Shown in pieces: positions 1,184 through 30,176 of a stretch of DNA of 64,000 bases; position 1 is the stretch's first letter, and every line of letters begins with the position of its first letter. The position numbers and the translations under genes were made by a program. The stretch spans positions 186,001-250,000 of the forward strand of contig NZ_JAPSKE010000006.1 in assembly GCF_031177825.1 (NCBI RefSeq), read 5' to 3'. The stretch comes from Paenibacillus sp. (GTDB taxonomy: Bacteria > Bacillota > Bacilli > Paenibacillales > YIM-B00363). The notes under the pieces were generated by a model that was not told the DNA's origin, did no database searches, and was given only the letters and a program-made list of their open reading frames with translations.

Positions 1184-1513
1184 TTCCTCCTCTTCCTTCG
1201 GTGGTTTGCTTGTACGGTCCTTCGAAAACACAGTGGCATCTATAAATTTACCCGCTGCCCTCCTTTTTTTGTCTTGACATACGAAAAGACTCTGCATATT
1301 ATCTAATTGACAATACCATTTTATTTTTAGTTGGTAAGCGGTGTCAATCCATTCGAATTACAAACTGTGTTACATATCTACTTCATAAAGTTAACATTGT
1401 TCGTCATCCATTCGTTTCGCCGATTTGTCTTTTTGGGGATGGGAGTGCACCGCCACATAGATGGTCCATTGCTCTCAGAGTATTACTTTTGTCCAAAAAA
1501 GGGAGGAGAACGT
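1184..1513. other. Divergent intergenic region with long leader before the importer operon
   Basis: 330 bases separate the lyase gene from the binding-protein gene. It holds a good plus-strand promoter (1274-1302) and a roughly 200-base AT-rich untranslated leader. No open frame with a ribosome-binding site and no riboswitch or convincing operator was recognised in the leader. Confidence 0.6.
1274..1302 (+). promoter_or_regulatory. SigA-type promoter of the importer operon
   Basis: TTGACA at 1274-1279 and TATTAT at 1297-1302 are separated by exactly 17 bases, close to the housekeeping consensus. Transcription would start near 1309 and leave about 200 bases of leader before the ATG at 1514. 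Confidence 0.75.
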
Positions 1514-3142
1514 ATGTCAAGAAAGGTTCTAGCAACACTTCTAGCTTCTGTACTTGTCACTACATCGCTTGCGGCATGTAGCGGCGGAAACGGCTCCAAC
1601 AGCGGGAACGAAACCCCGCCTGCGACTTCCGAAAACGAAGCCCCTCCGGCTCAGGAAACCGAAAAACCCCCGGAAGAAGATCTTTCCGCCCAATACGGCG
1701 ATACGGGCGGCCTCAAGCTTCCGCTCGTAGACAAACCGACCACCATCAAAATGCTTGTCGTCAGCGATGCTTCCAATCTGAAGGACAAGTGGGTCGTCAA
1801 AGAATTGGAAGAAAGAACCGGCGTCAAAGTGGATCTCGAGTTTTACTCTACTGCGACTTATGCGGAAAAGCTCAAAGTAATCATGGCCTCCGGAAACCTT
1901 CCGGACATCATTCACGGGCCTAGCCTCGCGGAAATTAACGAGTTGGGCGGCAAGGGCGCCTTCGCTCCGATCAACGATTACCTCGATCAGCTGCCTAACT
2001 TTAAAGCGATGTACGTGGACAACCAGGAAAACAACTGGGTCATGAAGTCATATTCGGACGACAGCGGCAACATCTACACGTGGCCGATCTACGGATTGAA
2101 CCGCGAGGTGAACCACGGATTCCTGTACCGCAAAGATATTTTCGACAAACATAACATCCCGTTATGGACGAATACCGAAGAATTCTACCAAGCCTTGAAG
2201 AAATTGAAAGAGCTTTATCCGGATTCGATCCCTTACGCGTCGAAGACGCAAGCTTGGATTTTCCGGGATTGGGGATACGGTTGGAACATCGCGGGGTATC
2301 CGCACAACTTTAACGAAGATACGAAGAACTGGGAACTGGCGTTCACGAAGCCGGAATATAAAGAGATGCTCGACTTTATGAAGAAGCTTCGCCAGGAAGG
2401 ACTGCTCGATCCGGAATTCGTGACCGACACCTCGGCCAACTGGACGGCGAAGATGACGACGGATCAATCGTTCGTCACGTTCGACTGGATCGGCCGCTTG
2501 GATATGTTCTACAACCAAGCCAAAGAGACGAATCCGGAGTACGACCTGCGGTACGGCAACCCGATCGGACCGGTATTCAAAATTCGCAGTCTGCCGATGA
2601 TCTCCACCTACGGCCACGCGATCGCGAAGAACGAAAACACGGAAGTTTCGATGAAACTCATGGATTACTTGACCAGCCCGTCCGGCGCCGAACTGATGAC
2701 GGTGGGCCAGCAAGGCGAAAATTACGAGCTCGACGCCGAAGGCAAAGTCGTATATCCGGAGCTGAAGGATCTCGATTTGATCGAGATCAAAGTGTTGGAA
2801 GATAAATACGGCATGTGGGTACAAGGGTTCTATACGCGTACCGACCGTCGAAGCGTGTACTATAACTACACGGAGAAGGAACAAGAAGCGCAAGACATGA
2901 TGAAGGACATGAAGCTTCCGCTGGACCCCGTATTGAAATTTACGGATGAGGAAACTTCGACGATCGCCGACCTCGCCGCGACGCTGCAGAAGGCGGGCGA
3001 AGAATTCAGCGCGAAGTACGTGCTTACGGATTCTTACGGTCAAGCCGAGTGGGATGCATGGCTCCAGCAAGCGAAACAGCTGGGCGAAGACGACTTCGTC
3101 GGCGCGTACAATGCTGCGCAAGCCCGATTCGACGCTGAATAA
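1514..3142 (+). CDS. Extracellular sugar-binding lipoprotein of a CUT1 importer (LipO/YtcQ type)
   Basis: The 542-aa product starts at the ATG at 1514, seven bases after a GGGAGGAG box; an in-frame upstream extension to 1331 would lack both this site and the lipoprotein signal. The N-terminus is a lipoprotein signal ending in the lipobox LAAC at about residue 22, followed by a Ser/Gly/Glu/Pro-rich linker. The mature protein has the two-lobed family 1 binding-protein pattern (motifs such as SGNLPDIIHGP and the late segment SPSGAELMTVGQQGENYE). It should sit outside the membrane and deliver oligosaccharides to the two permeases encoded next. Given the divergent PL8 lyase, unsaturated uronic-acid oligosaccharides are a plausible ligand; that is inference. 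Confidence 0.9.
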   Translation: MSRKVLATLLASVLVTTSLAACSGGNGSNSGNETPPATSENEAPPAQETEKPPEEDLSAQYGDTGGLKLPLVDKPTTIKMLVVSDASNLKDKWVVKELEERTGVKVDLEFYSTATYAEKLKVIMASGNLPDIIHGPSLAEINELGGKGAFAPINDYLDQLPNFKAMYVDNQENNWVMKSYSDDSGNIYTWPIYGLNREVNHGFLYRKDIFDKHNIPLWTNTEEFYQALKKLKELYPDSIPYASKTQAWIFRDWGYGWNIAGYPHNFNEDTKNWELAFTKPEYKEMLDFMKKLRQEGLLDPEFVTDTSANWTAKMTTDQSFVTFDWIGRLDMFYNQAKETNPEYDLRYGNPIGPVFKIRSLPMISTYGHAIAKNENTEVSMKLMDYLTSPSGAELMTVGQQGENYELDAEGKVVYPELKDLDLIEIKVLEDKYGMWVQGFYTRTDRRSVYYNYTEKEQEAQDMMKDMKLPLDPVLKFTDEETSTIADLAATLQKAGEEFSAKYVLTDSYGQAEWDAWLQQAKQLGEDDFVGAYNAAQARFDAE

Positions 3143-3165
3143 AGGCTGCTAAATCAAATACAAAC

Positions 3166-3209
3166 GGCAGTACATCCGGAAGCGATGAACTCGAATCCGG
3201 TGTACTGCC
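3166..3209 (+). terminator. Intra-operon hairpin between binding protein and permeases
   Basis: GGCAGTACA plus CCGG pairs with CCGG plus TGTACTGCC around an 18-base loop, with no clear T-run after it. Its place between the binding-protein gene and the first permease fits a 3' stabiliser or partial attenuator that keeps binding-protein mRNA above permease mRNA. Confidence 0.55.
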
Positions 3210-3236
3210 TCATTCGTTCAAGGAGGAATCGCGGCG

Positions 3237-4202
3237 TTGACAAATCCGGAGATGAACACTGCTATGCTGAATCCGAAGCGGGGCCGAACGTCGAAGTGGA
3301 TCTCCATGCTGCAGCATATCAAACGAGATCGCCAATTCTTGCTCTTACTGCTCCCCTGCATCGCATTTTTCGCCATTTTTCGATACGGGCCGATCTATGG
3401 TTTGATTATCGCATTTAAGGATTTCAGCGTATACGACGGCATATTAGGCAGCGAATGGGTAGGATTAGAGCACTTTCAAAAATTTTTCAATAGCTTTGAT
3501 TTCTGGCTTCTTTTTAAAAACACCTTGCTGCTTGGCCTTTACAATTTATTATGGAGTTTTCCGTTCCCGATCATCTTCGCGATTCTTCTGAATGAAGTAA
3601 GAAGCCAGCGTTTCAAAAAATCGATTCAGACGTTCAGTTATCTTCCCGCCTTCTTGTCGATCGTAATTATCTGCAGTATGGTGATCGATTTTCTGTCCCC
3701 CAGTCGAGGGCTGATCAATCAGTTCATCTCGTTCCTCGGGTTTGAAAAGATCTACTTTATGATCGCTCCGGAATGGTTCCGAACGATCTTTATTTCATCG
3801 GACATCTGGGCTTCCATGGGCTATGAAGCCATTATATACCTGGCGGCCATCGCCGGAATCGACCCCACCCTCTACGAAGCGGCGAAGGTGGACGGCGCGA
3901 AGCGGTGGCATACGATGCGGTTCATTACGATCCCTTCGATCCTCCCGACGATTCTCATTATGTTCATTTTGAAAGCGGGATCGATGTTCCGGATCGGTTA
4001 CGAGAAGGTTCTATTATTGTACAATCCAATGACTTATGAAGTGGCGGACGTGTTTTCTACCTATGTCTACCGGAAAGGGCTTTTAGAGCGAGATTACAGC
4101 TATGCGGCCGCCGTGGGCATTTTCGAAGCGTTGATCGCATTGATCATGCTGCTTGGAGCCAATCTGCTGAGCAGAAGATTTGGGGGTAAGAGCCTATGGT
4201 AG
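3237..4202 (+). CDS. Sugar ABC transporter permease, LplB type
   Basis: The 321-aa membrane protein starts at TTG 3237, ten bases after AGGAGG at 3221; the next ATG (3252) is too far from that site. After a basic N-terminal tail come six predicted transmembrane helices beginning with FLLLLLPCIAFFAIF. The cytoplasmic EAA loop reads EAAKVDGAKRWHTMRFITIP, the coupling site for the shared importer ATPase. It pairs with the next permease, whose start overlaps its end by seven bases, and both follow a binding lipoprotein. LplB/YtcP-type permeases move oligosaccharides or oligogalacturonides; the substrate is not decidable here. No ATPase gene is linked. Confidence 0.9.
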   Translation: MTNPEMNTAMLNPKRGRTSKWISMLQHIKRDRQFLLLLLPCIAFFAIFRYGPIYGLIIAFKDFSVYDGILGSEWVGLEHFQKFFNSFDFWLLFKNTLLLGLYNLLWSFPFPIIFAILLNEVRSQRFKKSIQTFSYLPAFLSIVIICSMVIDFLSPSRGLINQFISFLGFEKIYFMIAPEWFRTIFISSDIWASMGYEAIIYLAAIAGIDPTLYEAAKVDGAKRWHTMRFITIPSILPTILIMFILKAGSMFRIGYEKVLLLYNPMTYEVADVFSTYVYRKGLLERDYSYAAAVGIFEALIALIMLLGANLLSRRFGGKSLW

Positions 4203-5059
4203 GAGAGAAGAGAATCACCCTGTTTACCGTCTTGAACACGATCATCCTTACCTGCGTCGCTGTCTTAACGATTTACCCCGTCATTTACATCATTTCCATC
4301 TCGTTCAGCGATACGACCGCCGTCGCGCAAGGGAAAGTGGTTTTATGGCCGGTCGGGTTCAGCTTGGATGCTTACCGGCACATTTTCTCGGAAGACCGTA
4401 TTCCTCGCGCGTATTTGAACACGATTCTCTATACGGCGCTTGGGACATTCATTAATCTATTAATGACCGCGATAGCTGCATACCCGTTATCCCGTACTCA
4501 TTTATTCGGTCGAAAATTTTGGGTCATCGCCATCGTTCTGACCATGTTTCTGAACGGCGGGATGATTCCGACGTATATTATCGTGCAGAAGCTCGGGCTG
4601 ATCAACTCCATCTGGGCGATCGTCCTGCCGAACGCCATCTGGACGCTGGAACTCCTTATCCTTAAGAGCTTCTATGAAAACATGTCGGAATCGTTGCGGG
4701 AATCGGCCGTGATCGACGGCGCGTCGGAATTCCGCATTCTGCGGAGTATCATTATTCCGCTTTCCAAGCCGGCTCTTGCATCCATCGGATTGTTTTACTT
4801 TATGGGCCATTGGAACAGCTACTTCATTCCGATGATTTATTTGAACGATACGGAAAAATATCCGCTGCAGGTCGTCCTGAGAGAGATGCTTATTTTTGCC
4901 TACGCGGAGGAAACCCAGGTGGAAGGAACGAAGGCGCTCACCCCGGAATCCCTTAAGAATGCCACGATCTTCATTTCCATGATTCCGGTTCTTATGATTT
5001 ATCCGTTCGCGCAAAAGTATTTCGCCAAAGGCGTTATGCTCGGTTCCGAAAAAGGGTAA
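4196..5059 (+). CDS. Sugar ABC transporter permease, LplC/YtcP type
   Basis: The 287-aa product overlaps the preceding permease gene by seven bases, implying translational coupling. It has six transmembrane helices and an EAA loop of the form ESAVIDGASEFRILRSIIIP, followed by the family ending FAKGVMLGSEKG. It is the second half of the membrane channel of this CUT1 importer. The next gene begins 20 bases after its stop behind AAGGAGG, so all four genes likely form one transcript. Confidence 0.9.
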   Translation: MVGEKRITLFTVLNTIILTCVAVLTIYPVIYIISISFSDTTAVAQGKVVLWPVGFSLDAYRHIFSEDRIPRAYLNTILYTALGTFINLLMTAIAAYPLSRTHLFGRKFWVIAIVLTMFLNGGMIPTYIIVQKLGLINSIWAIVLPNAIWTLELLILKSFYENMSESLRESAVIDGASEFRILRSIIIPLSKPALASIGLFYFMGHWNSYFIPMIYLNDTEKYPLQVVLREMLIFAYAEETQVEGTKALTPESLKNATIFISMIPVLMIYPFAQKYFAKGVMLGSEKG

Positions 5060-5079
5060 TTCTCTAAGGAGGTTGTGGC

Positions 5080-8000
5080 ATGACAAAGCGTTTCGCGAAA
5101 ACGACGATTCACTGCTTGCTGCTCGCTTTGATCGTGATGTCGTCCTCGTACTTCCCGGCGCCATCCGCATATGCGGATGGACCGCTGCCGAACGTGTTGG
5201 CCAACCCCGGATTCGAGGCGTTGTCGGAGGACGACGGCGCCATCCCGAATTGGAGGATCAACGGCGGCGCGGCAGCGCTCAAGCCCGGGCTCGCGGCGGA
5301 GGTTACCGAGGAGGCCAGCAGCTCCGGAAGTAAGAGCTTATACCTTGCGGACGACCTTACGAATGCAGCTATTGTCCTATACAGCGATCCGATCGAAGTC
5401 ACGGCAGGGCAAACCTATCGATTGTCCGTTAAGACGAAGGATGCTCGCGGCACGATCTACGTCGGGCTGCGCTATTACAAGCAGGCGACGGACAACGTGA
5501 TTTCGGGTTATATCCCAAGAGCGAACTTCGCCGCGCTTTCCTCTTCCCTGACGTGGATGGAAACGCCGCTCGAGGCTGTCGCCCCGGCTGAAGCGAGCTA
5601 TGCAAGGGTTTTGCTTTACACCGCATCGGCGACGACAGGCGCCGCCTACTTCGATGACCTGCACTTCAGTCTTAAGCCCGCCGATCAAGGAGGGGGCATC
5701 GATTACGAAATAACGGACTTAGGTTCCATGGTACATACGATTAACACGCATCGGGCGGCGTTCGGGAGGGATGCTTCCGGCCGGCTGCTCGCTTACTCGA
5801 CGATGGTCGGGATTCCCGCCAATCTCTTGGTGATCGATGTGGAAACCGATACGTTGATCGCTCAAATCCCGATCCGCGATACGGTGAACGGCACGGAATA
5901 TTCCTCCACCTACGTTCGAGGACTGGTCGTCCAGCCCGACGGCACGGTGTATATGGCCGGTTCGCCAAGCTATATGTTTAAATATGTGCCCGGCGCTTCG
6001 GAAGTAGAGTATGTGCGACGAGTAGCGGGCTCTCAAGTATTCGATATGAAAGCCGGTCCGGACGGGGTTCTCATCGGAGGCTCCTATAACCAGAGCGAAG
6101 CCTTCGAATATAACACGATCACCGGAGAGTATAAGAGTCTAGGCAGAGTGTTGGATGACGAACAGTATGCTTACTCCGTTGCATACGACGGCGTCCGCGA
6201 CGATATTTACTTCGGGATGGGCGCGAACGCCCGATTGGTGAAGCTGGATCGGGAAACCGGGGTCAAAACCGAAATCGCGGTGCCGGCTCCGTTCGCGGAA
6301 ACGAACTTTATTTTCGATATGGCGGTCGCGGGGGACAACCTGTTCGTGTACTTCTCGCCGGGCGGCGTCGTGGTCTATGATTTAACGACCGGCCGGTTCG
6401 AAGAGAACGTCTTTCCCGCATCGGGCGCCCAACTGTCCCGGCTCGTCTCCCCGGCGTCGCCGGTCGACGGCAAGGTGTATTTCACGTCCCATTCTCATCT
6501 CGGATATTACGACCCGAACACGCGGCAATATACGGTGATGGAGCATATCGATACGACCGGTCAGGTGTATGGCTTTACGTTCGCGGAGCTTTCCGATTCC
6601 GCTTACCCCGGATCTTCCTTGGTAGGGATTACTAGGGAAGGTCGCGTATTTAAATACAACCCTCAGACGGGAGCATCTCAATATACGGTCCTCCCGATCG
6701 AAGGGGAGCCTACTCAGCTGCAGATGGTCGCCTTAGGCAATGACGGCCGCATGCATATCAGCGGTTATTTGTCGGGCGGGAATGCGATCTACGACCCGTT
6801 GACGGGCATGCATCAAGAATACACGAACGAAACGATGGGTCTCGGGCAGAAGCTGCCGCAGACGGACCGGATCTATAGCTATAAAGACAAAGTTTATTAT
6901 GTCGCTTACCCGAATATGGAGGTTTACGAATTCGACCAATATGAGCCATGGGAACGTACGGCGGATCCGAACGCGTCGAACCCGAAGCTGCTGTTCTCCG
7001 CGCTCGACGTGGGCGAACAGGATCGCGGCCTTGCAGGGACGGTGATCGAGGAGGCAGGCAAGCTCGTCATCGGTACGGTACCGAAGTACGGGAAATTGGG
7101 CGGCGCCCTGATCATCTATGATCTGGAGACGAACGTACGCGAAGCTTACTACAATGTGATCGACCAGCAGAGCGTCACGGCGGTAACCTACAAGGACGGG
7201 CTCATTTACGCCGGTTCCAATATATGGGGCGGGCTCGGCGTCGATCCGACGCAGACGGAAGCGAAGTTGTTCATCTGGGATATGGAGAACCGGGAGAAGG
7301 TGTTCGAAACGGTTCCCGTCCCAGGGAAGAAAGGGATTACCGAATTGATCGTCGGACCGGACGGAAACATCTGGGGTTCGGCGGAAGGCATGCTGTTCAT
7401 CTTCGACCCGAATACCCGGCAGGTCATTCATACCCAATCGCTCATGCCGCGGAATTATACGGGGGCGGTGTGGCGCGACGCTCAATTCGCGATCGGAACG
7501 GACGGCAACGTCTACGGCTCGCAGGCGAATAAATTTTTCGTCATCGACTCGGCGACGAAGGAGATGACGGTGATCCGGGATGTCGGGATCCGGAACTGGA
7601 TGGCGATGGACGATTTCGGAAACTTCTATTTGACGGAAGAGTCGAACCTGCTGCGCATTACGATTCCGGAGCTGGTTCGTCAACCGGTCGGCTTGGAGCT
7701 CGCGGTTTCCTCCGCGTCGCTGCTCCGCGATCAGGTCGCTGCCCCTTCGGTGAAGCTGCTGCTTACCAAGGACGGGGCGGTCGACAACCTGGAGCGGAGG
7801 AACCCGCAATACTTCTCGAGCGACCCGTCCGTCGTTCGAGTGGATAACGGCAAATTTATAGCGGCGAATCCGGGTTCGGCCGAGGTTTGGAGCGAGTTTA
7901 TTTACAACGGCGTTACCTATGAAAGCAACCGGGTGCATGTGTCCGTCGTTACGACGCTCGATTCGGTCAGCGGCCGATTGCAGCAGTTCATCCAATCCGG

Positions 8001-8211
8001 CGATATCTCCGGCGCGATGTCTTCTCAGCTTACGAATTCGCTGGAGCAAGTTTCCCATTTCATGAATTTGGGCGATTCGAAGCAGGCTGCATTTCATTTG
8101 GATCGTTTCCTCATGCACTTGAATCATCAACCGTTGGCCGACCGAATTACGGAGCATGCGCGCAACATCCTCGATGCGGATGTTCGCGCGTTGGCCGCGA
8201 CCTTCCCGTAA
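5080..8211 (+). CDS. Large secreted beta-propeller protein with N-terminal carbohydrate-binding-like and C-terminal FIMAH-like domains
   Basis: The 1043-aa product has a Sec signal peptide (about residues 1-33, ending SAYA-DG). Visible regions are a jelly-roll, carbohydrate-binding-like module (about 38-205, starting NVLANPGFE), a long set of propeller-type repeats with DPxTG/YDLxT turns (about 210-865), an Ig-like region (about 870-960), and a helical C-terminus (about 960-1040) with the pattern LQQFIQSGDISG...FLMHLNHQPLADRI, resembling the FIMAH domain of secreted Bacillus-group proteins. No catalytic glycosidase motif was recognised. As the last gene of the operon facing a PL8 lyase it may bind or cleave the same polysaccharide; some propeller proteins are polysaccharide lyases, so lyase activity is an open possibility. 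Confidence 0.75.
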   Translation: MTKRFAKTTIHCLLLALIVMSSSYFPAPSAYADGPLPNVLANPGFEALSEDDGAIPNWRINGGAAALKPGLAAEVTEEASSSGSKSLYLADDLTNAAIVLYSDPIEVTAGQTYRLSVKTKDARGTIYVGLRYYKQATDNVISGYIPRANFAALSSSLTWMETPLEAVAPAEASYARVLLYTASATTGAAYFDDLHFSLKPADQGGGIDYEITDLGSMVHTINTHRAAFGRDASGRLLAYSTMVGIPANLLVIDVETDTLIAQIPIRDTVNGTEYSSTYVRGLVVQPDGTVYMAGSPSYMFKYVPGASEVEYVRRVAGSQVFDMKAGPDGVLIGGSYNQSEAFEYNTITGEYKSLGRVLDDEQYAYSVAYDGVRDDIYFGMGANARLVKLDRETGVKTEIAVPAPFAETNFIFDMAVAGDNLFVYFSPGGVVVYDLTTGRFEENVFPASGAQLSRLVSPASPVDGKVYFTSHSHLGYYDPNTRQYTVMEHIDTTGQVYGFTFAELSDSAYPGSSLVGITREGRVFKYNPQTGASQYTVLPIEGEPTQLQMVALGNDGRMHISGYLSGGNAIYDPLTGMHQEYTNETMGLGQKLPQTDRIYSYKDKVYYVAYPNMEVYEFDQYEPWERTADPNASNPKLLFSALDVGEQDRGLAGTVIEEAGKLVIGTVPKYGKLGGALIIYDLETNVREAYYNVIDQQSVTAVTYKDGLIYAGSNIWGGLGVDPTQTEAKLFIWDMENREKVFETVPVPGKKGITELIVGPDGNIWGSAEGMLFIFDPNTRQVIHTQSLMPRNYTGAVWRDAQFAIGTDGNVYGSQANKFFVIDSATKEMTVIRDVGIRNWMAMDDFGNFYLTEESNLLRITIPELVRQPVGLELAVSSASLLRDQVAAPSVKLLLTKDGAVDNLERRNPQYFSSDPSVVRVDNGKFIAANPGSAEVWSEFIYNGVTYESNRVHVSVVTTLDSVSGRLQQFIQSGDISGAMSSQLTNSLEQVSHFMNLGDSKQAAFHLDRFLMHLNHQPLADRITEHARNILDADVRALAATFP

Positions 8212-11266: not shown

Positions 11267-11308
11267 AACGCCCCCGCCGGACTGACGTCTGCGCGGGGGC
11301 GTTTTCGT
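11267..11308 (+). terminator. Rho-independent terminator after the DUF4395 gene
   Basis: AACGCCCCCGC pairs with GCGGGGGCGTT around a 15-base loop, followed by TTCGTTTTT. It lies between two convergent genes; the opposite strand has only a weak T-rich tail (TTACCTTTTCC). Confidence 0.85.
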
Positions 11309-11310
11309 TT

Positions 11311-11721
11311 TTAGCGGGTCAAGAGGTGAACCAGCGCGAAGGCGGCGAAGACGAGCGCCGCGGCGAGATGAAATTTCCGGCGGAAGCCGGAGGCCCTCCG
11401 GCTGCGAAGGTACCCTGCCGCTACCGTAACGCCGAGCAGCAGGATTGCCGCGTAGCCGCTGACCATTTTCGGATGAACATAACCGACGTACCGTCCAAGC
11501 TGGGCGAGCATAACGCCAGCGTGAATAACGATAAGCGCCGTGCCGGCGATGCCGACGGGAATATGCGATTTCATGAGCTTCCTTGCAAGCTTCACGAAGG
11601 CGATCTTGACCGCTTTCCAAGCGCTCCGCTTAATGACGAAGAAGAGGAACGCCAAGCTCAGGTTGACGAGGAAGAGCGAGACCGCGAGCTGAGCCGCGAG
11701 CTGTCCGTAAGGGTCGATCAT
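11311..11721 (-). CDS. Small His-rich four-helix membrane protein (cytochrome b/ferric reductase-like)
   Basis: The 136-aa product starts at the ATG at 11721, four bases after the radical SAM stop codon, so it is the last gene of the operon and probably translationally coupled; the longer in-frame start at 11937 would lie inside that gene. It has four hydrophobic helices. Histidines fall at or near helix ends (SHIPVGIAG, VIHAGVML, VHPKMVSG, RKFHLAAAL, LVHLLTR), in a spacing that recalls b-type haem proteins such as ferric-reductase-like transmembrane domains. Haem binding is inference. A role as electron donor to, or membrane partner of, the neighbouring radical SAM enzyme would fit. Confidence 0.65.
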   Translation of the reverse strand: MIDPYGQLAAQLAVSLFLVNLSLAFLFFVIKRSAWKAVKIAFVKLARKLMKSHIPVGIAGTALIVIHAGVMLAQLGRYVGYVHPKMVSGYAAILLLGVTVAAGYLRSRRASGFRRKFHLAAALVFAAFALVHLLTR

Positions 11722-11725
11722 CGTC

Positions 11726-13153
11726 TTATATCGGACCGGCAAGACCGAACGCCTCGGCGACCTCCGCCTTCCGTTCCGCGAGAAGCTGCTCCTTGTCGTC
11801 CCGGTAAAACATGTTGAACGTGTCGAACGGAATGACGCGGCCGTCCGGGTGGACGATGTGTACGCACGACTTCTTGACGGATCGGACGTCGAAGTTATGC
11901 GCGTCCAGGAACTGCATGATGATGACGCGGAATACATTGTCGTAGCCGATCGCGTCAGGGACGGCCGCCATCGGCAGGCAGCAGAGCAGACTCTTCAGCG
12001 ACAGCGCGGACGATTCCGGGGAGTGCGCCGTCGAGAACAGCTTGAAGATATGCGACTTGAGCGTCTCGTCCGACTCGAACACGATCGTGTTGCGTCCGCC
12101 CTCGAGCAGAATGGCCGGATCGATCATGCCCGTGAGCGGAACGACCTCGTCTCCGAGCTTCAAGGCATACCCCATCGCCAGACAGTCCGGGTGGCAGGGG
12201 ACCGGCAGCATATCCTCTTCCCGGAAGATGCCGGATTGTTCAATAATGCCGCGGCGCACCTCGCTGAGCGTCAGTCGGTCCTTCGACGGATCGTACTCGT
12301 CGAGGCGCCCGGCCGCCTGGATCGGCTGGAAGGTGACGCCCCGCACCGCACGCTGTTTCAGTCCGTACCGGATTATATCACCGATTTCCCGGTCGTTCAG
12401 CCCTTTCTTGAGCGTAACGACGAGCGTCGTCGAGACGTTGAACTCGTTCAAGTGCTCGATCGCCTTCGCGCGGATGCCTCGCAGGTCGGCGCCTCGCAGC
12501 TCCTTGAGCGTATCCGCCTCGAAGCTGTCGAACTGCAAATACAGCTCGAATCCCGGCATGTAGGAAGCTAGCCGCTTGGCGAACTCGCGGTCCTGCGCAA
12601 TGCGGATGCCGTTCGTGTTCACCATCAGATGTTTGATCGGTTTCTTCTTCGCAAGATCGAGGATTTCGAAAAAGTTCGGATGCGTCGTCGGCTCCCCGCC
12701 GCTAATCTGCACGATGTCGGGCTCTCCTTCGTTACGCACGACCCTATCGAGCATCGCTTCGATCTGCTCGAGCGAGCGGTAGGTCGCCCGATGCGGTCCC
12801 GATTCCGCGTAGCATATCGGGCATTGCAGGTTGCATTGGTCCGTGACTTCGATCAAGGTGAGGCAGCTGTGCTGCTCGTGATCCGGGCACAGCCCGCAGT
12901 CGTAGGGGCAGCCGTAACGGATCGGAGTGTTCCATTGCAGCGGCATCTCCGACGGCTTGTTGAAGTCGCGGCATCGCTTGTAGTACTCGACGTCCGTCGA
13001 AAGAAGCACCTTTTCCGGCCCATGCCGCAAGCAGCGCTTGTGCATGAACACCTTCTCGTTTTCGATCACGATCTTAGCTTCTACCTTCCGGAAACACGTC
13101 GAGCAGATGCTGTTCGTCAGCTCGTGGAATACATAAGGTCGGTTAGCGGGCAT
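11726..13153 (-). CDS. Radical SAM enzyme of the MJ0619/tetraether-lipid-synthase (Tes) type
   Basis: The 475-aa protein begins with a Cys-rich domain (CSTC at about residue 18, then CLRHGP). A second Cys block, YGCPYDCGLCPDHEQHSCL (about 96-115), precedes the radical SAM motif CNLQCPIC (about residue 127), the SAM-binding ISGGEPT (about 170) and VNTNGIR. This order of Cys clusters before the CxxxCxxC motif is that of the MJ0619 family, whose characterised archaeal member (Tes) joins lipid chains by C-C bond formation between unactivated carbons. Bacterial members are poorly characterised. It overlaps the Lgt-like gene by 11 bases. A reaction on membrane lipid or a lipid-bearing molecule is inference from family and neighbours; methylation of another substrate is the main alternative. 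Confidence 0.8.
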   Translation of the reverse strand: MPANRPYVFHELTNSICSTCFRKVEAKIVIENEKVFMHKRCLRHGPEKVLLSTDVEYYKRCRDFNKPSEMPLQWNTPIRYGCPYDCGLCPDHEQHSCLTLIEVTDQCNLQCPICYAESGPHRATYRSLEQIEAMLDRVVRNEGEPDIVQISGGEPTTHPNFFEILDLAKKKPIKHLMVNTNGIRIAQDREFAKRLASYMPGFELYLQFDSFEADTLKELRGADLRGIRAKAIEHLNEFNVSTTLVVTLKKGLNDREIGDIIRYGLKQRAVRGVTFQPIQAAGRLDEYDPSKDRLTLSEVRRGIIEQSGIFREEDMLPVPCHPDCLAMGYALKLGDEVVPLTGMIDPAILLEGGRNTIVFESDETLKSHIFKLFSTAHSPESSALSLKSLLCCLPMAAVPDAIGYDNVFRVIIMQFLDAHNFDVRSVKKSCVHIVHPDGRVIPFDTFNMFYRDDKEQLLAERKAEVAEAFGLAGPI

Positions 13154-13934
13154 GGCGTATCCCCCGTTTCTTCGGATCGATCCATCCGGACAGCAGCGGG
13201 GCGTAGTACATCAGCCCCGCCGCGCAGGCAAGCTGGATGTTGTTGAGTCCCAGATAGAAGTGTGGCGTAGGCTTAATAAAATCGATTGCGAATCGGAACA
13301 GCAAATAAGCGGCCATGAACAGTTGGAACACCGCTCCCGGAGGGAGGGACGCATCGCCGCGCCGGATGCGGAGAACGTGCAGCGCCGTTCCCAACCCGAT
13401 CAGGAAGGCGATCTCGTACAGCTGCGCCGGATGGCGCGGAACGCCGTCGCCGAAGTCGACGCCTATGGGCCAGCTCGTCGGCGTGCCGTGCGTACCGTCC
13501 TCGAGCCCGGTCAAGAAGCAGCCGATGCGGCCGATGCACATGCCGACGATGAGCGGCAGCACGAAGTCGTCGCCGGTCGACGACTTCCAGCCGGCCAGCT
13601 TCTTCGCGAGCTCCACGCCGATCAGCCCGCCGAGCAGCCCTCCGACGATCGTCTTGCCCGCGAGCAACGCGGTCCAATCGCCGGCGGCGACGTGCGACGC
13701 GGTCAGCAGCGGATCCTCCAGCCAGAACAGCAGCTTCGAGCCCGCCGCCGCTCCGACCATGGCGCCGGCGATGATCTGCAGGCCGACCAGCGGCGGGATG
13801 CCGCCTTTGGTCCGGGACCATAGATACACCCGGAAGCCGATGAAGTACGACAGCGACTCGAAGACGATGTGCGGATGCAGCTGCCACGAGCCTATGGCGA
13901 TGTATACAGGGAACGACAACCGATCCGCCTCCAA
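13143..13934 (-). CDS. Divergent Lgt-like (prolipoprotein diacylglyceryl transferase family) membrane protein
   Basis: The 263-aa polytopic membrane protein has the Lgt family layout: FPVYIAIGSWQLHPHIVFESLSY at the N-terminus (shown by its landmarks FPVY and HIVFES), a GGLLGGLIG loop at about residue 97, the signature region IGRIGCFLTGLEDG near 135, and HPAQLYE near 168. Canonical Lgt carries an essential His before the GGL loop and an Asn in the R-I-A-N part of the signature. Here those places read V and C, so it is probably not the housekeeping lipoprotein enzyme but a paralogue with changed chemistry or acceptor. Its 3' end overlaps the radical SAM gene and its start lies seven bases after the zinc-finger gene. 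Confidence 0.75.
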   Translation of the reverse strand: MEADRLSFPVYIAIGSWQLHPHIVFESLSYFIGFRVYLWSRTKGGIPPLVGLQIIAGAMVGAAAGSKLLFWLEDPLLTASHVAAGDWTALLAGKTIVGGLLGGLIGVELAKKLAGWKSSTGDDFVLPLIVGMCIGRIGCFLTGLEDGTHGTPTSWPIGVDFGDGVPRHPAQLYEIAFLIGLGTALHVLRIRRGDASLPPGAVFQLFMAAYLLFRFAIDFIKPTPHFYLGLNNIQLACAAGLMYYAPLLSGWIDPKKRGIRHAR

Positions 13935-13941
13935 CTCAGCC

Positions 13942-14202
13942 TTATTTCGTAAAGAGGATTCCGGCGCACAACGCCAGAAGCAGCACCGTAATGGCGCCGA
14001 TGATGGCGAGAATGGAGACGAGCGTCTTCACCCAGACGTTGCGTCCGGGGATAAGGTGACCTCCCACGCTTGAGGGAGGCGTATGCTCGCATCCGTCTCG
14101 GCAGGAGCTCGTCCCAGGGTCGAAGCAGCTTTCGCACAGGGGCGCTCCGCATTGCCGACAGGTTTGCGTCGCGGCGGCGCCCGGGTGGCGTTTGCATTCC
14201 AA
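13942..14202 (-). CDS. Small B-box-like zinc-finger protein with C-terminal membrane anchor
   Basis: The 86-aa product starts at ATG 14202, 12 bases after GGAGGG. Residues 1-40 hold a Cys/His pattern (C3, H6, C15, C18, C23, C26, C33, then C38-EH) like the short B-box zinc finger found at the N-terminus of many Bacillus-group membrane proteins. Residues about 57-85 form one transmembrane helix. The zinc finger would face the cytoplasm if the helix is inserted N-in. It is the first gene of a four-gene operon with the Lgt-like, radical SAM and His-rich membrane genes and may tether or regulate them. Confidence 0.7.
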   Translation of the reverse strand: MECKRHPGAAATQTCRQCGAPLCESCFDPGTSSCRDGCEHTPPSSVGGHLIPGRNVWVKTLVSILAIIGAITVLLLALCAGILFTK

Positions 14203-14335: not shown

Positions 14336-17300
14336 TTAGTCGTCGATAAATTGAAGAGACTTTAGCATACGCCGCAGCGCGGCGGCGCATTGCGCGCGCG
14401 TAGCCGTCGCTTGCGACAGGAAGAGCGCGTCCGGACCGCCCTGCAGCACTTCCGATTCGACCAGCCTCGCGAGGGAGGCGCTCGCCCAATCGGATACGTC
14501 GTCGATATCCTTGAACCGCGCCGCCGGGGTAGCAGCCTGGGTAGCACCCGGGGCCGCCCCGCCGGAAGCGAACGCCGTCGCCCGGTCGAGCAGGACCGCC
14601 ATCTGCTCCCGCGTCACGGGGGCGTCCGGACGGAACGTGCCGTCCTCGTATCCCGTCAGGAGCCCCGCTCCGACCGCCGCGCCCGCCGCCCCTGCGTACC
14701 AGTCGCGGCTCGAGACGTCGGCGAAGCGCGCGCCTCGCGTCGTCTCGGACAGCCCGAGCGATCGCACGAGCAAGTCGACGAATTCGGCGCGAGTGACCGG
14801 ATCCTCGGGACGGAACGCGTTCTCCGCCGCGCCCTCGACGATCAGCTTGTTCGCGAGGAGCTCGATGTCGCCTTGGGCCCAATGTCCTTGGACGTCGGAG
14901 AATGTCCGCTCCGTTCGAACGACGGTGTACAAGCTGTTATGCGGCGCGTAAAATTCCGCTTCGCCGCCCCCGTTCCCGGTCGGTCGGAAGGTCGACGGGA
15001 TGTAATGCGGCCGGCCCTTCGCGTCGACCCACACGACGGTAGACGCGCGAGGATCGGGGGAGACGTCCAGGGCGATCGTCCGCACGGTATACGCTTCGCC
15101 TCGCTCGGTCATCTCCGTCCCGTCGCGATACAGCGCGAAGTCGACGGGAAGGGCGAGCATCTCGTAGCCTTGCTTCGCAAGCTCGCCCTTCACGCCGTCC
15201 TGGACGCCGGCTGCGGCTTTCGCGATCGCGACCGTGAGCGTGCCCGAATCCGGGAGAGACGGCCAATAGCGCAGCGGAAGCCGGTAGCTTGCGCCTTTCA
15301 CCCGAAGCTCCAGCGCCGCGTCGGGAGACGCCTTCCGCGCCTCCCTTAGTGCCGAGGCGGGCAGATCGAGCTTCACGATCGGGTCGTCGACGTTCGCCTC
15401 GACGACGGCGATGCCGCCGGCCGCGAGCAGTTCGCGCACGATTGCCGCGTCCGCGAGCAACCGCAGCGCGCTGCGCCCGTCGGGAGCGGTCTCCCGTCGA
15501 ACGGGGATCGCCAGGCTCGTTCCGTTCAGCTTGACTTGCATCGTCTCGACTGCCGGGGACGCCGGCGCCGGCGAAGCCGGGGAGCCGTCGTTATCGTCGT
15601 CGTCGTCCGAGCGGACGGCGGACAAGGCGATCGTTCCGACGTCGACCGTCTCGCCCGCGACGACGACGGCGGAGACGTCCTTCGACTCGTATCCGGTGGC
15701 GCTCGCGCGTACCGTCCGGCTGCCCGGCGCGACGTTCGTCAGCGCGAAGCTTCCCCGAGCGTCGGTCGTCGCCTCGATACCGTCGACGGACACCGTCGCG
15801 CCGGCGAGCGGATTGCCGTTCGCGCCGTATACCGCGCCGGTCACCGAGCCGACGGTCGGCGGCACGGGCAACACCGTCACGACGACGCGATCCGTATGCG
15901 CGCCGTCCGCCGTCGTCGCCGCGATCGTCGCGACGCCCGGCGCGACGGCCGATACCTCGCCCGAGGGGCTGATCGCCGCGACGTCCTCGCGGTCGGAGCT
16001 CCAGACGACGGACGGGTCGGAAGCGTCCGCCGGTTCGACCGTCGCGGTCAACCGCCGCGGCGGATCGCCGACGGTCATCGCGAAGTCGGACGCGTCGATG
16101 CGGATGCCGGCGGCCGGGATCGGCGTCGGAGAGAGCGAGACGCGTCCGATATCGACGGTCTCGCCCGCGACGACGGCGACGGCGACGTTCGCCGGATCGT
16201 ATCCGCCGGCGCTCGCCAGCAGCGTGCGGCCGCCTTCCGCGACGTTCGCGAGCGCGAAGCGTCCGTACGCGTCCGTCGTCGTCGACGCGGCGTCGATGGA
16301 GACGGTCGCGCCGTGGATCGGAACGTCGCCGACGCCGTAGACCGTTCCCGTCACCGTGCCGAAGGACGACTTGATGTGCCCCGCCTCGAGTGCGACGCTC
16401 CCCCATGCCGCGACCCGCCCTTGCCCATCGACTTCGTAGAGGGCGAGGTATTGTCCGACGCTCGCCGCCGGAATGTCGCTGCCCGCCGCATACGCGATCG
16501 CCTCCCCGGGAACGGCGCCGCCGACGAACGGACGCTCGGGGGCAGAGCCGGTAAGCGTATACCGGAACGTATGCCCGGCCGCGCCGGGAACCGCGGTCGC
16601 CCGGGTCGACCCGTAGGCGGCGCCAGGTTCGACCGCGAACGAGGCCGGCTCCGAAGCGAATTCCTCGACGATCAATTCGAACGTGCGCTCGTCGCCGACG
16701 CCCGCCGCGTCGGCGGCCGAGACGGTTACCTCGAACGCGCCCGACTGCTCGGGCGTCCCTTGCAGTACGCCCGCCTCGTTCAACGTCAGTCCGTTCGGCA
16801 GCCCGTCGGCGCTCCAGCTTAGCGTCGTATCCGCGCCTTCGAAGGCGCCGAGCGTATAGGAATAGGGGACATCCTTCGTTGCGGCGGGCAGCGATTCCGT
16901 CGCGATCTCGTGCCGTAAGTACGGGTACCCGTCGTTCACCGACGGATGGATGGCCCACGTATCCGCGAAATCCCACCCCGCGTAACTGGACGATAACTTC
17001 ATCGAAGCGGTCGACAAGCCGATCGCGCCTCCCGCGCCGCCATTCGTCGTCCCGCTCGTATCGAGATCGAAATACGAGCTCGCGACGGCGCCGAGAGAGG
17101 CGACCGAGGCGATAAATCCGCGGACGACCGGGTAAGTCGTCCCCGCGGTATCGGTCGCGACCGGCCCGGTCGAATAGGCGTCTCGAATTTCTCCATAGAT
17201 AAGGAACGCCGCGAGACCTGCGGAGTGCGCATAGGTGCCCCCGGGTCGGTGGGTCACGGCCCCTCTCGCATACGCGTCGTCGACGTCGCCCGCGCCTTTG

Positions 17301-17944
17301 CTTCCGACGAGGCCCGCGACATAAATATTAGGCGCGGTCCCGCTTTCGACGGAGGCCGTCGAGTAGGAGCGCATAATGCCCGCGCTATTCGACGAGCCGA
17401 CCAATCCCGCGACGACGGAGGCGGAACCGGCGGCCGGAAGCTTCCCTCTCACGCTTCCTATCGAATATGAGCGGTCGATGAGGCCGCCGCTCTGCACCCC
17501 GGCCAACCCGCCGGCGTATTCGCCGGCGAAGATGTCGACCGACACGCCGAGATTCTTGACGGTACCGCGAGTGTCGCCGAAAAATCCGACGTACGCGTAA
17601 TCGTCGCCGCTGTCTCCGGCGTCGTCGACGATCGAGACGCCGGTAACGCGGTGTCCCCCGCCGTCGAAGACGCCGCCGAAAGCCGGGATGCCGTTGCCGC
17701 CGAACGGCTTCCACTCGAAGCCTTCCGGCAGCGCGATATCGTTCGCGAGCCGAATGTTTCGCGCGACGTATTCCGTTTGATTTTCATTCAGGTACATCAG
17801 CTGCGCGGCGGTGGACACTTGCACCCACCCGTCGACGACGGGCGGAAGCGGCTCGGCGGCGCGGGCCGTCGGCATGTGCCATCCCGGCGGGATCGCGAGC
17901 GCCAGGACGATCGTCCAGACTACGATTAAGGAAACGCGTTTCAT
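14336..17944 (-). CDS. S-layer-homology surface protein with GLUG-like, Ig-like and two carboxypeptidase-regulatory-like domains
   Basis: The 1202-aa secreted protein starts at ATG 17944, ten bases after GGAGGAG; the in-frame ATG at 17998 lacks such a site. Order: signal peptide (1-30, ending ARA), GLUG-type repeats about 140-290 (AGLVGS...SYSTASV pattern), a putative He_PIG Ig domain about 345-430, a carboxypeptidase-regulatory-like domain about 528-605, a Big_2-type Ig domain about 617-692, a second regulatory-like domain about 697-775, an Asp-rich linker near 781, a beta-rich region, and three SLH repeats about 1013-1200 for cell-wall anchoring. GLUG and Ig modules suggest adhesion or substrate binding; no catalytic motif was seen. 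It diverges from an NTPase regulator gene that may control it. Confidence 0.85.
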   Translation of the reverse strand: MKRVSLIVVWTIVLALAIPPGWHMPTARAAEPLPPVVDGWVQVSTAAQLMYLNENQTEYVARNIRLANDIALPEGFEWKPFGGNGIPAFGGVFDGGGHRVTGVSIVDDAGDSGDDYAYVGFFGDTRGTVKNLGVSVDIFAGEYAGGLAGVQSGGLIDRSYSIGSVRGKLPAAGSASVVAGLVGSSNSAGIMRSYSTASVESGTAPNIYVAGLVGSKGAGDVDDAYARGAVTHRPGGTYAHSAGLAAFLIYGEIRDAYSTGPVATDTAGTTYPVVRGFIASVASLGAVASSYFDLDTSGTTNGGAGGAIGLSTASMKLSSSYAGWDFADTWAIHPSVNDGYPYLRHEIATESLPAATKDVPYSYTLGAFEGADTTLSWSADGLPNGLTLNEAGVLQGTPEQSGAFEVTVSAADAAGVGDERTFELIVEEFASEPASFAVEPGAAYGSTRATAVPGAAGHTFRYTLTGSAPERPFVGGAVPGEAIAYAAGSDIPAASVGQYLALYEVDGQGRVAAWGSVALEAGHIKSSFGTVTGTVYGVGDVPIHGATVSIDAASTTTDAYGRFALANVAEGGRTLLASAGGYDPANVAVAVVAGETVDIGRVSLSPTPIPAAGIRIDASDFAMTVGDPPRRLTATVEPADASDPSVVWSSDREDVAAISPSGEVSAVAPGVATIAATTADGAHTDRVVVTVLPVPPTVGSVTGAVYGANGNPLAGATVSVDGIEATTDARGSFALTNVAPGSRTVRASATGYESKDVSAVVVAGETVDVGTIALSAVRSDDDDDNDGSPASPAPASPAVETMQVKLNGTSLAIPVRRETAPDGRSALRLLADAAIVRELLAAGGIAVVEANVDDPIVKLDLPASALREARKASPDAALELRVKGASYRLPLRYWPSLPDSGTLTVAIAKAAAGVQDGVKGELAKQGYEMLALPVDFALYRDGTEMTERGEAYTVRTIALDVSPDPRASTVVWVDAKGRPHYIPSTFRPTGNGGGEAEFYAPHNSLYTVVRTERTFSDVQGHWAQGDIELLANKLIVEGAAENAFRPEDPVTRAEFVDLLVRSLGLSETTRGARFADVSSRDWYAGAAGAAVGAGLLTGYEDGTFRPDAPVTREQMAVLLDRATAFASGGAAPGATQAATPAARFKDIDDVSDWASASLARLVESEVLQGGPDALFLSQATATRAQCAAALRRMLKSLQFIDD

Positions 17945-18072
17945 AGATGCTTTGCTCCTCCATTGCGTGCAAGATGAAATGTAATCAGACCTTTTCATAG
18001 TATAGAATAATAATAGGATCGGTGATGTTTCGTTTTTGTTTCATATTTTGCGAGAAGAAAGTAGGGGGCGTT

Positions 18073-22909: not shown

Positions 22910-24688
22910 ATGCGGAGATATCCGGCGGAATTCACCATCTTCAAAAAGCTCGTTTTGACCTTTCTGCTCGTACTTACGCCACTCTACGTCACAAGTATGA
23001 TGATGAATGAAACCGGGTCGAAGACGCTAAAAACGGAAATTTCGAATTCCATGTATTCGAAGGTCAGCTATTACATGAATACGATCGATTCCGAGTTCCA
23101 GCGAATCGTGACCCAGCAATTCGAGTTGATGTACGATGAGGATCTTTCGAAATTGAGCGTCGCCTACTCTACCATGAGCAATATCCAGCGTATGGACTCG
23201 ATTCTGCGGCTGAGCAAACGACTTGTCATACTAAAAAGCTCTACCCGTTATGTAAAGGATATAGCCGTCTACATTCAAGCCATCGATCGAACGATCTCGA
23301 CAGCGAGTTCTTCGATTTCTTTTCCGACCAATGAGTTATTCGATAAAGAACTGTCGCGGATAACGGCAGAAGTACCCATACGTCTCTGGAATGATCGAAT
23401 GTTCATCAGCATCCCCTACCCGGAGAGGCAGTACTGGAGCGCACTGAACGGCCCCTCTTTTGTGATTCACGCCGAGATCGACGCCAAAGCGTTAACGGAC
23501 GATCTTAACCGGTTTGTTTCTCATGCGGACGGGGGATCCCTATTGGCCGGCGTAAAGCGCGACTGGTTTCTGACGGACGGCCTGCTCTCGGAACGTAAAA
23601 ATCAGCTGCTGGATTGGCTGGAGGAAAAATCGGAGGATGATCGGAACCATGGGTCCGGCACTTTCGTCATGGACAATCGCCCCTTTATGGTTACCTATCA
23701 GAAAGCGCCTGCCATGGATGCGGTCATGTTGACGTATACGCCGGAGGAGCAGGCACTTGGTCCGATGCTGAAATATCAACGTTGGTATTGGGTGCTGTCC
23801 GTCATTTCCGTCATCGTCGTATTTGCATTTTCCTCTTCGATTTACGGGTTGATTCACCGTCCGCTCGTTCGCCTGCTGCAGTCGTTCAGAAGCGCCGAGC
23901 GGGGTCATTTCGAGCGCATCGGTCCTTACCGATTCAAGGATGAATTCTCTTATCTGTACCTTCATTTCAATCAAATGATCGACCGGCTAAATGTGCTCGT
24001 TCACGAAGTATATGAGCAGAAATATCGTGCGCAGCTGGCGGAGCTGCGGAAGCTTCAATCGCAGATCAACCCGCATTTTTTCTATAACAGCTTCTTTATT
24101 CTGTATCGTATGGCGCAATCGGAGGACTATGAAAGCGTCATGAGGCTTGCCCGTCATCTGGGCGATTATTACCGGTATATCGCTCGCGACGGCAAAGATT
24201 TGATCGGCCTGGGAGCGGAAGTACAGTTTACAAGAACCTATGCGGAGATTCAGAACATGCGTTTCGGCAAACGCATTCGCGTCGAATTCGCGGATCTCCC
24301 CGAAGCGCTGTACAAGATACCTATACCTCGGTTGACCTTGCAGCCGATCCTGGAAAACGTCTATGAGCATGGTCTGGAGAAAAAAGCGGCGGACGGCTGG
24401 ATCGGCGTGTCCTTTGAAGAAGGTGACGACCGAATTGCAATCGTAATCGAAGATAACGGGGATCAACTGGACGACCGGCAGTTGGATGAGCTGAACAGCC
24501 GGCTGAATTCGCCGGAATCGGTGGAGGAAAGCACAGGACTCATCAATATTCATCGCCGGATTCGCATTTACGGCAAAGGAAGAGGAGGGCTGACGCTCGC
24601 CCGAAGCGAACGTGGAGGGTTAAAGGTTAGGGTGTCGATTCCGAAGGAGGGCGAAGCGCATGTACAGACTGCTGCTGGTGGACGATGA
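22910..24688 (+). CDS. Sensor histidine kinase, YesM family
   Basis: The 592-aa membrane kinase has a first transmembrane helix at about residues 11-31, an extracellular sensor region of about 255 residues, a second helix at about 288-311, a HAMP-like linker, then the LytS/YesM-type histidine kinase domain. The phosphorylated His is in the motif INPHFFYN, at about residue 389. The ATPase part includes LILENVYEHG and later EDNGDQL, with a somewhat eroded G-box for the family. It overlaps the response regulator gene by 29 bases. YesM kinases sense extracellular sugars, often together with binding proteins, and switch on the linked importer. The ligand cannot be inferred. Confidence 0.9.
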   Translation: MRRYPAEFTIFKKLVLTFLLVLTPLYVTSMMMNETGSKTLKTEISNSMYSKVSYYMNTIDSEFQRIVTQQFELMYDEDLSKLSVAYSTMSNIQRMDSILRLSKRLVILKSSTRYVKDIAVYIQAIDRTISTASSSISFPTNELFDKELSRITAEVPIRLWNDRMFISIPYPERQYWSALNGPSFVIHAEIDAKALTDDLNRFVSHADGGSLLAGVKRDWFLTDGLLSERKNQLLDWLEEKSEDDRNHGSGTFVMDNRPFMVTYQKAPAMDAVMLTYTPEEQALGPMLKYQRWYWVLSVISVIVVFAFSSSIYGLIHRPLVRLLQSFRSAERGHFERIGPYRFKDEFSYLYLHFNQMIDRLNVLVHEVYEQKYRAQLAELRKLQSQINPHFFYNSFFILYRMAQSEDYESVMRLARHLGDYYRYIARDGKDLIGLGAEVQFTRTYAEIQNMRFGKRIRVEFADLPEALYKIPIPRLTLQPILENVYEHGLEKKAADGWIGVSFEEGDDRIAIVIEDNGDQLDDRQLDELNSRLNSPESVEESTGLINIHRRIRIYGKGRGGLTLARSERGGLKVRVSIPKEGEAHVQTAAGGR

Positions 24689-26336: not shown

Positions 26337-26340
26337 ATAT

Positions 26341-26376
26341 TGTCTCATTGAGACATACCGGAGCAGGGCGGATAAT
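26341..26376 (+). promoter_or_regulatory. Promoter with overlapping inverted repeat before the binding-protein gene
   Basis: TTGAGA (26348-26353) and GATAAT (26371-26376) are 17 bases apart. The inverted repeat TGTCTC-ATT-GAGACA (26341-26355) overlaps the -35 box, the place for a regulator that blocks or recruits polymerase. This separate promoter lets the importer be transcribed independently of yesMN. Confidence 0.65.
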
Positions 26377-26408
26377 GAAAGCGTACACAAAACAAGGAGG
26401 AATGAAAG

Positions 26409-29038: not shown

Positions 29039-29052
29039 GGGAGGATGCCCAG

Positions 29053-29937: not shown

Positions 29938-29940
29938 TAC

Positions 29941-29979
29941 AAAGGTACAGCTTTCGCGCGCTGCGGAAGCTGTACCTTT
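29941..29979. terminator. Strong hairpin ending the first YesMN importer operon
   Basis: AAAGGTACAGCTT pairs perfectly with AAGCTGTACCTTT (13 bp) around a 13-base loop, four bases after the stop codon. The following T content is low (GGCCATTTAT), so termination may be only partly factor-independent. Confidence 0.65.
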
Positions 29980-30018
29980 GGCCATTTATCGATGGTAGCG
30001 GATGAGGAAAGGGAAGAA

Positions 30019-30049: not shown

Positions 30050-30176
30050 CCACTGCCGTCCGAAGGCTCGCCGCAACTCCCGAAAAAAAGGGAGCAAACA
30101 TGAATTTTACGCAATTATGCCCGAAGCCGCTTTCCGGTACCATGTCAGTACAGGCGTGTGCGACATACGGAAAGGA

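Follow-up and report, generated by a model that had tools for sequence, protein, structure and literature searches.

A Tes-fold radical SAM protein, an Lgt-like protein and a small membrane protein with a tail cysteine form a conserved three-part gene cassette in Bacilli

Which of four closely packed minus-strand genes in a Paenibacillus genome belong together, and what might they do jointly? The genes lie in a 64,000-nt stretch of Paenibacillus sp. DNA (contig NZ_JAPSKE010000006.1, positions 186,001 to 250,000; hereafter the window) and encode, in order, a zinc-finger/transmembrane protein, a protein resembling Lgt, a radical S-adenosylmethionine (SAM) protein (hereafter rSAM) with the cysteine pattern of the tetraether synthase (Tes) MJ0619, and a four-helix membrane protein. 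A first-pass annotation of the DNA had read them as a four-gene operon for membrane-lipid or lipoprotein-lipid modification, equipped with its own electron donor. All four open reading frames (ORFs) are borne out at the positions given in Table 1. The conserved unit, however, has three parts, namely the rSAM, the Lgt-like protein and a small membrane protein whose C-terminal tail carries a cysteine; the tail-cysteine partner had been overlooked.

A conserved unit of three genes

Relatives of the rSAM were collected by a scan of genome contigs (genome_contigs), and the best 80 of 215 were kept as loci. In all 80, the Lgt-like gene lies directly upstream of the rSAM gene, with gaps of -44 to +165 nt for the starts chosen. 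In 348 Bacilli genomes drawn evenly (E-values up to 1e-70 for the rSAM and up to 1e-35 for the Lgt-like protein), the same 25 genomes carry both genes, adjacent each time, and 323 carry neither. Because 80/80 adjacency is joined by 25/25 adjacent pairs and 323 double absences, the coupling of the two genes is not a matter of chance but is real and strict in Bacilli. The cassette is nevertheless patchy even among near relatives, the rSAM being present in 16 of 60 relatives of the window genome. The genera represented among the best 80 loci are Paenibacillus, Saccharibacillus, Cohnella, Brevibacillus, Tumebacillus, Shimazuella, Neobacillus, Bacillus, Fictibacillus and Aeribacillus, together with two metagenome-assembled genomes (MAGs) of other phyla. 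Since cultured Paenibacillus, Brevibacillus, Tumebacillus and Neobacillus strains carry the cassette, it is open to experiment.

The third part is a small membrane protein of two types. The window and genomes resembling P. lautus or Saccharibacillus encode it upstream of the pair, as a zinc-finger/transmembrane protein; elsewhere it is mostly a protein of 80-145 aa with two to three transmembrane helices, encoded downstream. The C-termini share a transmembrane helix with a cysteine, as in LLLALCAGILFTK, FLLNAACFGLLLSG and LLLTICGAILFSY. This pattern was first seen in the 80 loci and then made into a rule (a C-terminal transmembrane helix by hydropathy and a cysteine no more than 16 residues from the end, on the same strand and within the flanks), which is satisfied in 104/104 loci; the 104 comprise the 80, which are thus not an independent test, and 24 from the Bacilli sample, 11 of them the same records as among the 80. 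Closer to an independent test are the 13 new Bacilli-sample records and 5 new records of relatives. For 13 further relatives, 8 of them repeats, the rule finds a partner in 12, and the remaining one (L170) was recognized by eye at the end of a longer protein, bringing the distinct tail-cysteine records to 98 besides the window. A stricter rule, devised afterwards and used in the same way on the real and the null sets, is satisfied in 96/104 loci versus 5/88 around unrelated genes of at least 300 aa in the same loci; the eight failures are apparently due to polar residues in the helix. Among other called genes ending in a transmembrane helix, only 3/32 have a cysteine in the tail. Single-linkage clustering with phmmer at E 1e-3 places 96 of 99 partner sequences in one cluster, reflecting either true kinship or merely similar helices.

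The tail cysteine lies 4-16 residues from the C-terminus, and the last Lys/Arg lies 19-21 residues ahead of it in 59 of 88 unique tails, around whose helices the net charge averages +2.3 before and 0.03 after. Because basic residues precede the tail helix, the helix is predicted to be N-in, with its cysteine towards the outer face of the membrane. This layout of charge and cysteine is that of a lipoprotein signal peptide.

The window partner combines an N-terminal Cys/His-rich domain (zf-B_box, 22.3 bits, below the cut-off of 24.1) with one C-terminal transmembrane helix, whose Cys79, the eighth residue from the C-terminus, is invariant in eight aligned sequences. The zinc-finger type occurs in 4 of the 60 relatives, each time beside the cassette, and in none of the 44 that lack the rSAM; a search for a second copy in G000, G778, G105 and G744 gave none scoring better than E 0.06. 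Both types occur in the genus of the window, the zinc type in G778 and the other in G780. The zinc finger itself was rejected as an essential part, as 20 of the 104 partners are upstream and of the zinc type (by cysteine count) and 81 are downstream without it. The slot of the zinc-finger/transmembrane gene thus holds a conserved helix-and-cysteine tail, and the zinc finger marks only a subset.

The four-helix gene fared differently. It begins 4 nt past the rSAM stop in the window, yet it has a homologue in 0/80 loci. Among the 60 relatives, the window genome and G778 have it next to the rSAM, G779 has it 16 kb off, and G815 has a weak match to it and no rSAM match. The protein reaches no Pfam cut-off, the best match being DUF4405 at 11 bits against 26.7. 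The gene is a passenger outside the conserved unit. Hence, the expected co-occurrence of four families holds for the Lgt-like/rSAM pair with a tail-cysteine membrane protein and fails for the four-helix gene.

The radical SAM and Lgt-like proteins

The closest solved relative of the rSAM by sequence is the M. jannaschii tetraether synthase MJ0619 (7tol; E 1.6e-68 for the rSAM alone and 2e-79 with a profile). Its AlphaFold model (predicted local distance difference test score, pLDDT, 80.2; residues 352-401 below 50) matches 7tol with E 2.0e-34 and TM-scores of 0.79/0.76. Apart from 7tom, which also matched, no other full-length structural relative was found, and the next PDB entries cover the core only (TM-score 0.37). 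Three groups of candidate ligands are present: CX2C...CX2H (C17, C20, C41 and H44), C82/C86/C89 with a nearby His (H92), and CX3CX2C (C107, C111 and C114). All of these Tes-type ligands are kept in 39/39 rows of an alignment made of the window, 33 of the 80 loci and 5 outside rows (L058 was dropped and L062 unused), bearing out the MJ0619-type cysteine pattern. C320, C391, C392 and C430 are likewise invariant (39/39), and C324 is found in 37. M413, equivalent to Tes Met439, is kept in 34/39, and the Tyr459 position holds Ile in 34, Val in 4 and Gln in 1; both residues are conserved in archaeal Tes and neither is essential in vitro, according to the available part of PMC9433317.

Despite this fold, the rSAM is not a Tes by family test. 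Zn_ribbon_HMPTM and Radical_SAM exceed their Pfam cut-offs, but the NCBIfam models of Tes (NF045702, 295.6 vs 450 bits) and TrsS (NF045646, 325.7 vs 490 bits) are both missed, so that filing the protein under either was rejected; we take it to represent a third branch of the Tes/TrsS superfamily, one that has no name. With Tes/GDGT-MAS it shares the full-length fold and the ligands of the rubredoxin-type, N-terminal and radical SAM clusters, but it has ~30% identity, Ile for Tyr459, other partner genes, and an extra cysteine pair (C391-C392) and C320 without aligned counterparts in MJ0619. TrsS is the best-scoring named family, aligned along the length, and C320, C391, C392 and C430 recur in the TrsS of G430; however, TrsS is a (seleno)protein whereas the rSAM has Cys throughout, and none of the cassette genes was seen beside the TrsS of G430. 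A third comparison, by description only, is with Mss, a bacterial membrane-spanning lipid synthase: this protein of Bacillota is likewise a radical SAM enzyme resembling Tes (PMC13274423, available part). In its own genome, the rSAM has a single other match as query, a weak one of 38.6 bits. Three further candidates were discarded: a selenocysteine or a broken reading frame in the rSAM gene of G514 (one TGA was first reported, but the aligned stretch has no stop), a fusion of rSAM and partner in L062 (the apparent fusion came from coordinates extended past the stop), and a phage link (no match in a phage collection at E 1e-30, with PHROGs returning generic radical SAM families only).

The Lgt-like protein scores 73.5 bits against Pfam LGT (cut-off 24.9). 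The sole PDB match of its model (pLDDT 90.9) at E < 0.001 is E. coli Lgt (5azb; E 1.1e-07, TM-scores 0.59/0.55). It falls below both NCBIfam equivalog cut-offs for Lgt, NF000778 (43.0 vs 334) and TIGR00544 (30.3 vs 118.9). An alignment of 49 rows (the window, 45 of the 80 loci and 3 clostridial rows) shows the equivalents of R143, R239, Y235, E202, G142, G145 and G154 invariant in 49/49, R143 and R239 being R136 and R214 in the window protein. In the same rows, N146 is replaced by Cys and H103 by Val/Ile/Leu, each in 49/49 (Cys139 and Val97 in the window), R246 by Lys in 46/49 and E243 by Asp in 41/49, and the E151 place has no Glu in any of the 49; the lack of the canonical His and Asn was thus correctly noted in the first reading. 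In E. coli Lgt, R143 and R239 are essential, mutants of H103, E151 and R246, including R246K, fail to complement, and R143, R239, Y235 and E202 contact or activate phosphatidylglycerol (PG), as stated in the available part of PMC4728403. Since the PG residues are invariant and residues needed in E. coli are replaced, it appears that PG binding is retained and that the catalytic surroundings are changed. Missing H103 and N146 are by themselves no proof of lost activity, and we do not conclude that the protein is inactive, because the conventional Lgt of the window genome reads AIYGAL, with Tyr in place of H103 and no His, and because the only LGT-family protein of G044 (L110) is of the GRIGCFLNGCCYG type, without H103 and N146. 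The G044 case also indicates that not every LGT-family protein has the residues described as essential in E. coli Lgt. Conventional, higher-scoring Lgt genes lie elsewhere in the window genome, G105, G186, G309 and G408, suggesting that the Lgt-like protein, a second copy with fixed partner genes, is specialized.

What the cassette may do

The protein families are known, while the fixed trio and the tail-cysteine partner appear undescribed. No description of the Lgt-like/rSAM pair was found in the literature, which is weak evidence given that subscription papers and preprints were outside coverage. The statement of the first-pass annotation that such a pathway was not described in Firmicutes holds, to that extent, for the gene pair; it does not hold for the lipids, as tail-coupling by Mss and iso-diabolic lipids have been published for clostridial Bacillota (PMC13274423, available part). 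Tes itself is notable for coupling lipid tails at unactivated sp3 carbons, and its discoverers pointed to homologues in bacteria for which no biphytanyl chains are known (PMC9433317, available part). The cassette gives one bacterial branch of the Tes superfamily two fixed partners, an Lgt fold of the PG-binding type and a membrane thiol at near-constant depth, and thereby narrows its job.

We favor, with a probability of roughly 0.4, a dedicated three-part lipid-modification cassette that includes diacylglyceryl transfer to the tail cysteine. In outline, the rSAM would change a lipid tail, the Lgt-like protein would bind PG, and it would then move the diacylglyceryl group, native or tail-modified, onto the tail cysteine of the partner, giving an uncleaved lipoprotein; the first of these steps is likelier than the transfer. 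This pathway is preferred because it combines published chemistry with the anatomy of the cassette proteins: Tes removes a hydrogen at the end of a lipid tail, makes a C-S bond by way of its C-terminal cluster and then joins a second tail (PMC9433317, available part), and the proposed substrates that Mss would join are iso-C15 lipids, whose head group is probably PG (PMC13274423, available part). A lipid or lipoprotein-lipid system, as proposed in the first reading, is the natural interpretation of a Tes-fold rSAM strictly coupled to an Lgt-fold protein in Bacilli; the electron donor of its own is the part that falls away.

Several observations weigh against the favored pathway. The chief difficulty is geometric: the rSAM would be cytosolic and the tail cysteine is predicted near the outer face, putting the two enzymes on opposite sides of the membrane, although a spanning lipid reachable from both sides would solve it. 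H103, E151 and R246, needed by E. coli Lgt, are all changed in the Lgt-like protein, and the Lys at R246 in 46/49 is the very change that fails complementation in E. coli. A canonical lipobox precedes the tail cysteine in only 4 of the 88 unique tails. By score, the rSAM is slightly closer to TrsS than to Tes, and it stays below the Tes cut-off. The methyltransferase resembling ICMT together with DUF4395, or the selenium/sulfur-type genes, that accompany the pair in clostridial relatives are not explained by the scheme. Finally, the coupling of the genes is observed, and the lipid chemistry is what we infer.

A more specific version, which we regard as less likely, is a new form of protein lipidation. 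The Tes-fold rSAM and the divergent Lgt would jointly lipidate a cysteine inside the C-terminal transmembrane helix of a dedicated small protein with a diacylglyceryl group that may be radical-modified or membrane-spanning, and no signal peptide would be cleaved. If true, C-terminal tail-box lipidation would be, to our knowledge, the first lipoprotein type of its kind, and Tes-type chemistry on a protein-bound lipid would likewise be the first such use known to us. A lipidated protein would extend the few known lipoprotein enzymes of bacteria by another route.

An alternative that we regard as rather unlikely keeps the lipids free. The rSAM would be the counterpart in aerobic Bacilli of Mss and Tes, joining the tails of two phospholipids, with the Lgt-like protein only presenting PG and the small protein a scaffold instead of a substrate. 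The Tes fold and ligands agree with this, as do the kept PG residues amid altered catalytic surroundings and the precedent of Mss and iso-diabolic lipids, probably made from PG, in clostridial Bacillota (PMC13274423, available part), but the fixed-place cysteine of the partner is left unexplained, and a literature search of partial coverage found no spanning lipids in Paenibacillus. A lipid product could bear on the bacterial sources of tetraether-like biomarkers.

An improbable alternative is sulfur or selenium chemistry, in which the rSAM would leave a C-S bond on the lipid, as in the thiolated intermediate made by Tes (PMC9433317, available part), and the tail cysteine and ICMT-like enzymes would handle the thiol. 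The proximity of the rSAM by score to TrsS, a (seleno)protein family, points this way, as do the ArsP/SaoE-type permease, selenium/sulfur-carrier and YedE-like/ICMT genes near the pair in G186 and the ICMT-like methyltransferase in G309 and G408. In the Bacilli loci, however, no such genes were noticed as constant, neighbor clustering having found only three parts widely shared; and we know of no sulfur lipid from these bacteria. Still less probable is that the rSAM acts on the small protein as maturases of ribosomally synthesized and post-translationally modified peptides (RiPPs) act on their precursors, the Lgt-like protein then lipidating or exporting the product: a short protein is indeed encoded beside the rSAM, down to 59 aa in Persicobacter, but peptide maturases match the core of the rSAM only (TM-score 0.37), and the cytosol-facing parts of the partners vary from a zinc finger to short loops, with no common peptide site besides the tail helix. 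Least of all do we credit the original four-gene pathway with the four-helix protein as electron donor, a role rejected despite the tight spacing in the window and the adjacency in G778, given the 0/80 loci, the 16 kb in G779 and the sub-threshold DUF4405 match.

Other lineages and the surroundings of the window locus

Outside the Bacilli, the cassette recurs with variations. Plasmid pPP1 of Persicobacter psychrovividus (Bacteroidota) carries an Lgt-like gene, an rSAM (57% identity) and a 59-aa protein that ends YFVIGTGICGSLLS and whose gene overlaps the rSAM stop by 4 nt. In the clostridial-type G309 and G408, the rSAM comes first and is followed by an ICMT-like methyltransferase, DUF4395 (a search made in G309 only), the Lgt-like protein and a small protein ending LLGTCSVLF or VGACVLLFIPFSG. 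In G186, a 96-aa protein ending TVVLCF is followed by the rSAM, the Lgt-like protein, an ArsP-type permease and selenium/sulfur-carrier genes; its cysteine, second from the C-terminus, falls outside the 4-16 range. The partners in the clostridial genomes and in Persicobacter were recognized on visual inspection. A phylum sample of 398 has its four best Lgt-like matches in G000, G105, G309 and G186, each near an rSAM of more than 400 bits; G300 has a 373-bit rSAM without an Lgt-like gene near it. There (L095), the TrsS-like rSAM adjoins a gene resembling SelD on visual inspection, together with an ArsM/DVU_1556-like methyltransferase and a 4Fe-4S membrane protein. Yet another gene setting of the rSAM superfamily is seen on a plasmid of Mycolicibacterium vanbaalenii JOB5 (L184), where the neighbors of a 39.5%-identical rSAM are annotated as a methyltransferase, as CcdA and as a disulfide oxidoreductase.

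The rSAMs of the two MAGs, L082 (Verrucomicrobiota) and L084 (Actinomycetota), group with the Bacilli sequences in a Tes/TrsS tree (support 100/99), the only grouping used from a tree with very long branches and false-join warnings. L084 has one tail-cysteine ORF of 124 aa, and L082 has two, of 59 and 110 aa. A second small ORF is also present in Brevibacillus dissolubilis (L020), where a 78-aa product ending VLLLMSACYGFLYLS follows the first tail-cysteine protein, ~369 nt past the end of the rSAM match. The presence of more than one partner at a locus would be compatible with the partner being a substrate.

Table 1. Coordinates of the cassette genes and associated features in the window
Feature	Position	Strand	Remarks
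Zinc-finger/transmembrane small membrane partner	13942..14202	-	86 aa; TTG start, AGGAGG before it
Cys79 codon of the zinc-finger/transmembrane partner	13966..13968	-	from sequence and alignment
Lgt-like protein	13143..13934	-	263 aa as called; Pfam LGT match
Lgt signature region, G135-G150	13485..13532	-	R136 kept (= R143); C139 replaces N146
Tes-fold radical SAM protein (rSAM)	11726..13153	-	475 aa; matches 7tol by profile and structure
rSAM CX3CX2C motif, C107/C111/C114	12812..12835	-	from sequence; invariant in 39 aligned
Four-helix membrane protein, downstream passenger	11311..11721	-	absent from 80/80 loci
GC-rich hairpin then T-rich stretch, possible terminator	11267..11303	-	read by eye

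In the window, the Lgt-like and rSAM genes overlap by 11 nt. The true start of the Lgt-like gene is more likely the TTG at 13919, because GGAGG precedes it and the Lgt-like proteins of relatives begin there; the gap to the zinc-finger gene would then be ~22 nt. The loop of the hairpin exceeds the limit of the terminator scan, which therefore does not list it on the minus strand. Ahead of the first cassette gene, the promoter scan found one promoter-like match against 1.0 expected. A single transcript of the four genes would agree with this match and the hairpin. Upstream of the cassette, a large gene (14336-17998), which by eye resembles one for a surface protein with S-layer homology, ends in a hairpin and T run ahead of the cassette. 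Further away, the segments 1331-8211 and 22910-40259 contain ABC transporter parts (SBP_bac_1 and BPD_transp_1), a FIMAH-domain protein, two His_kinase-type sensors and one protein with F5/8 type C domains.

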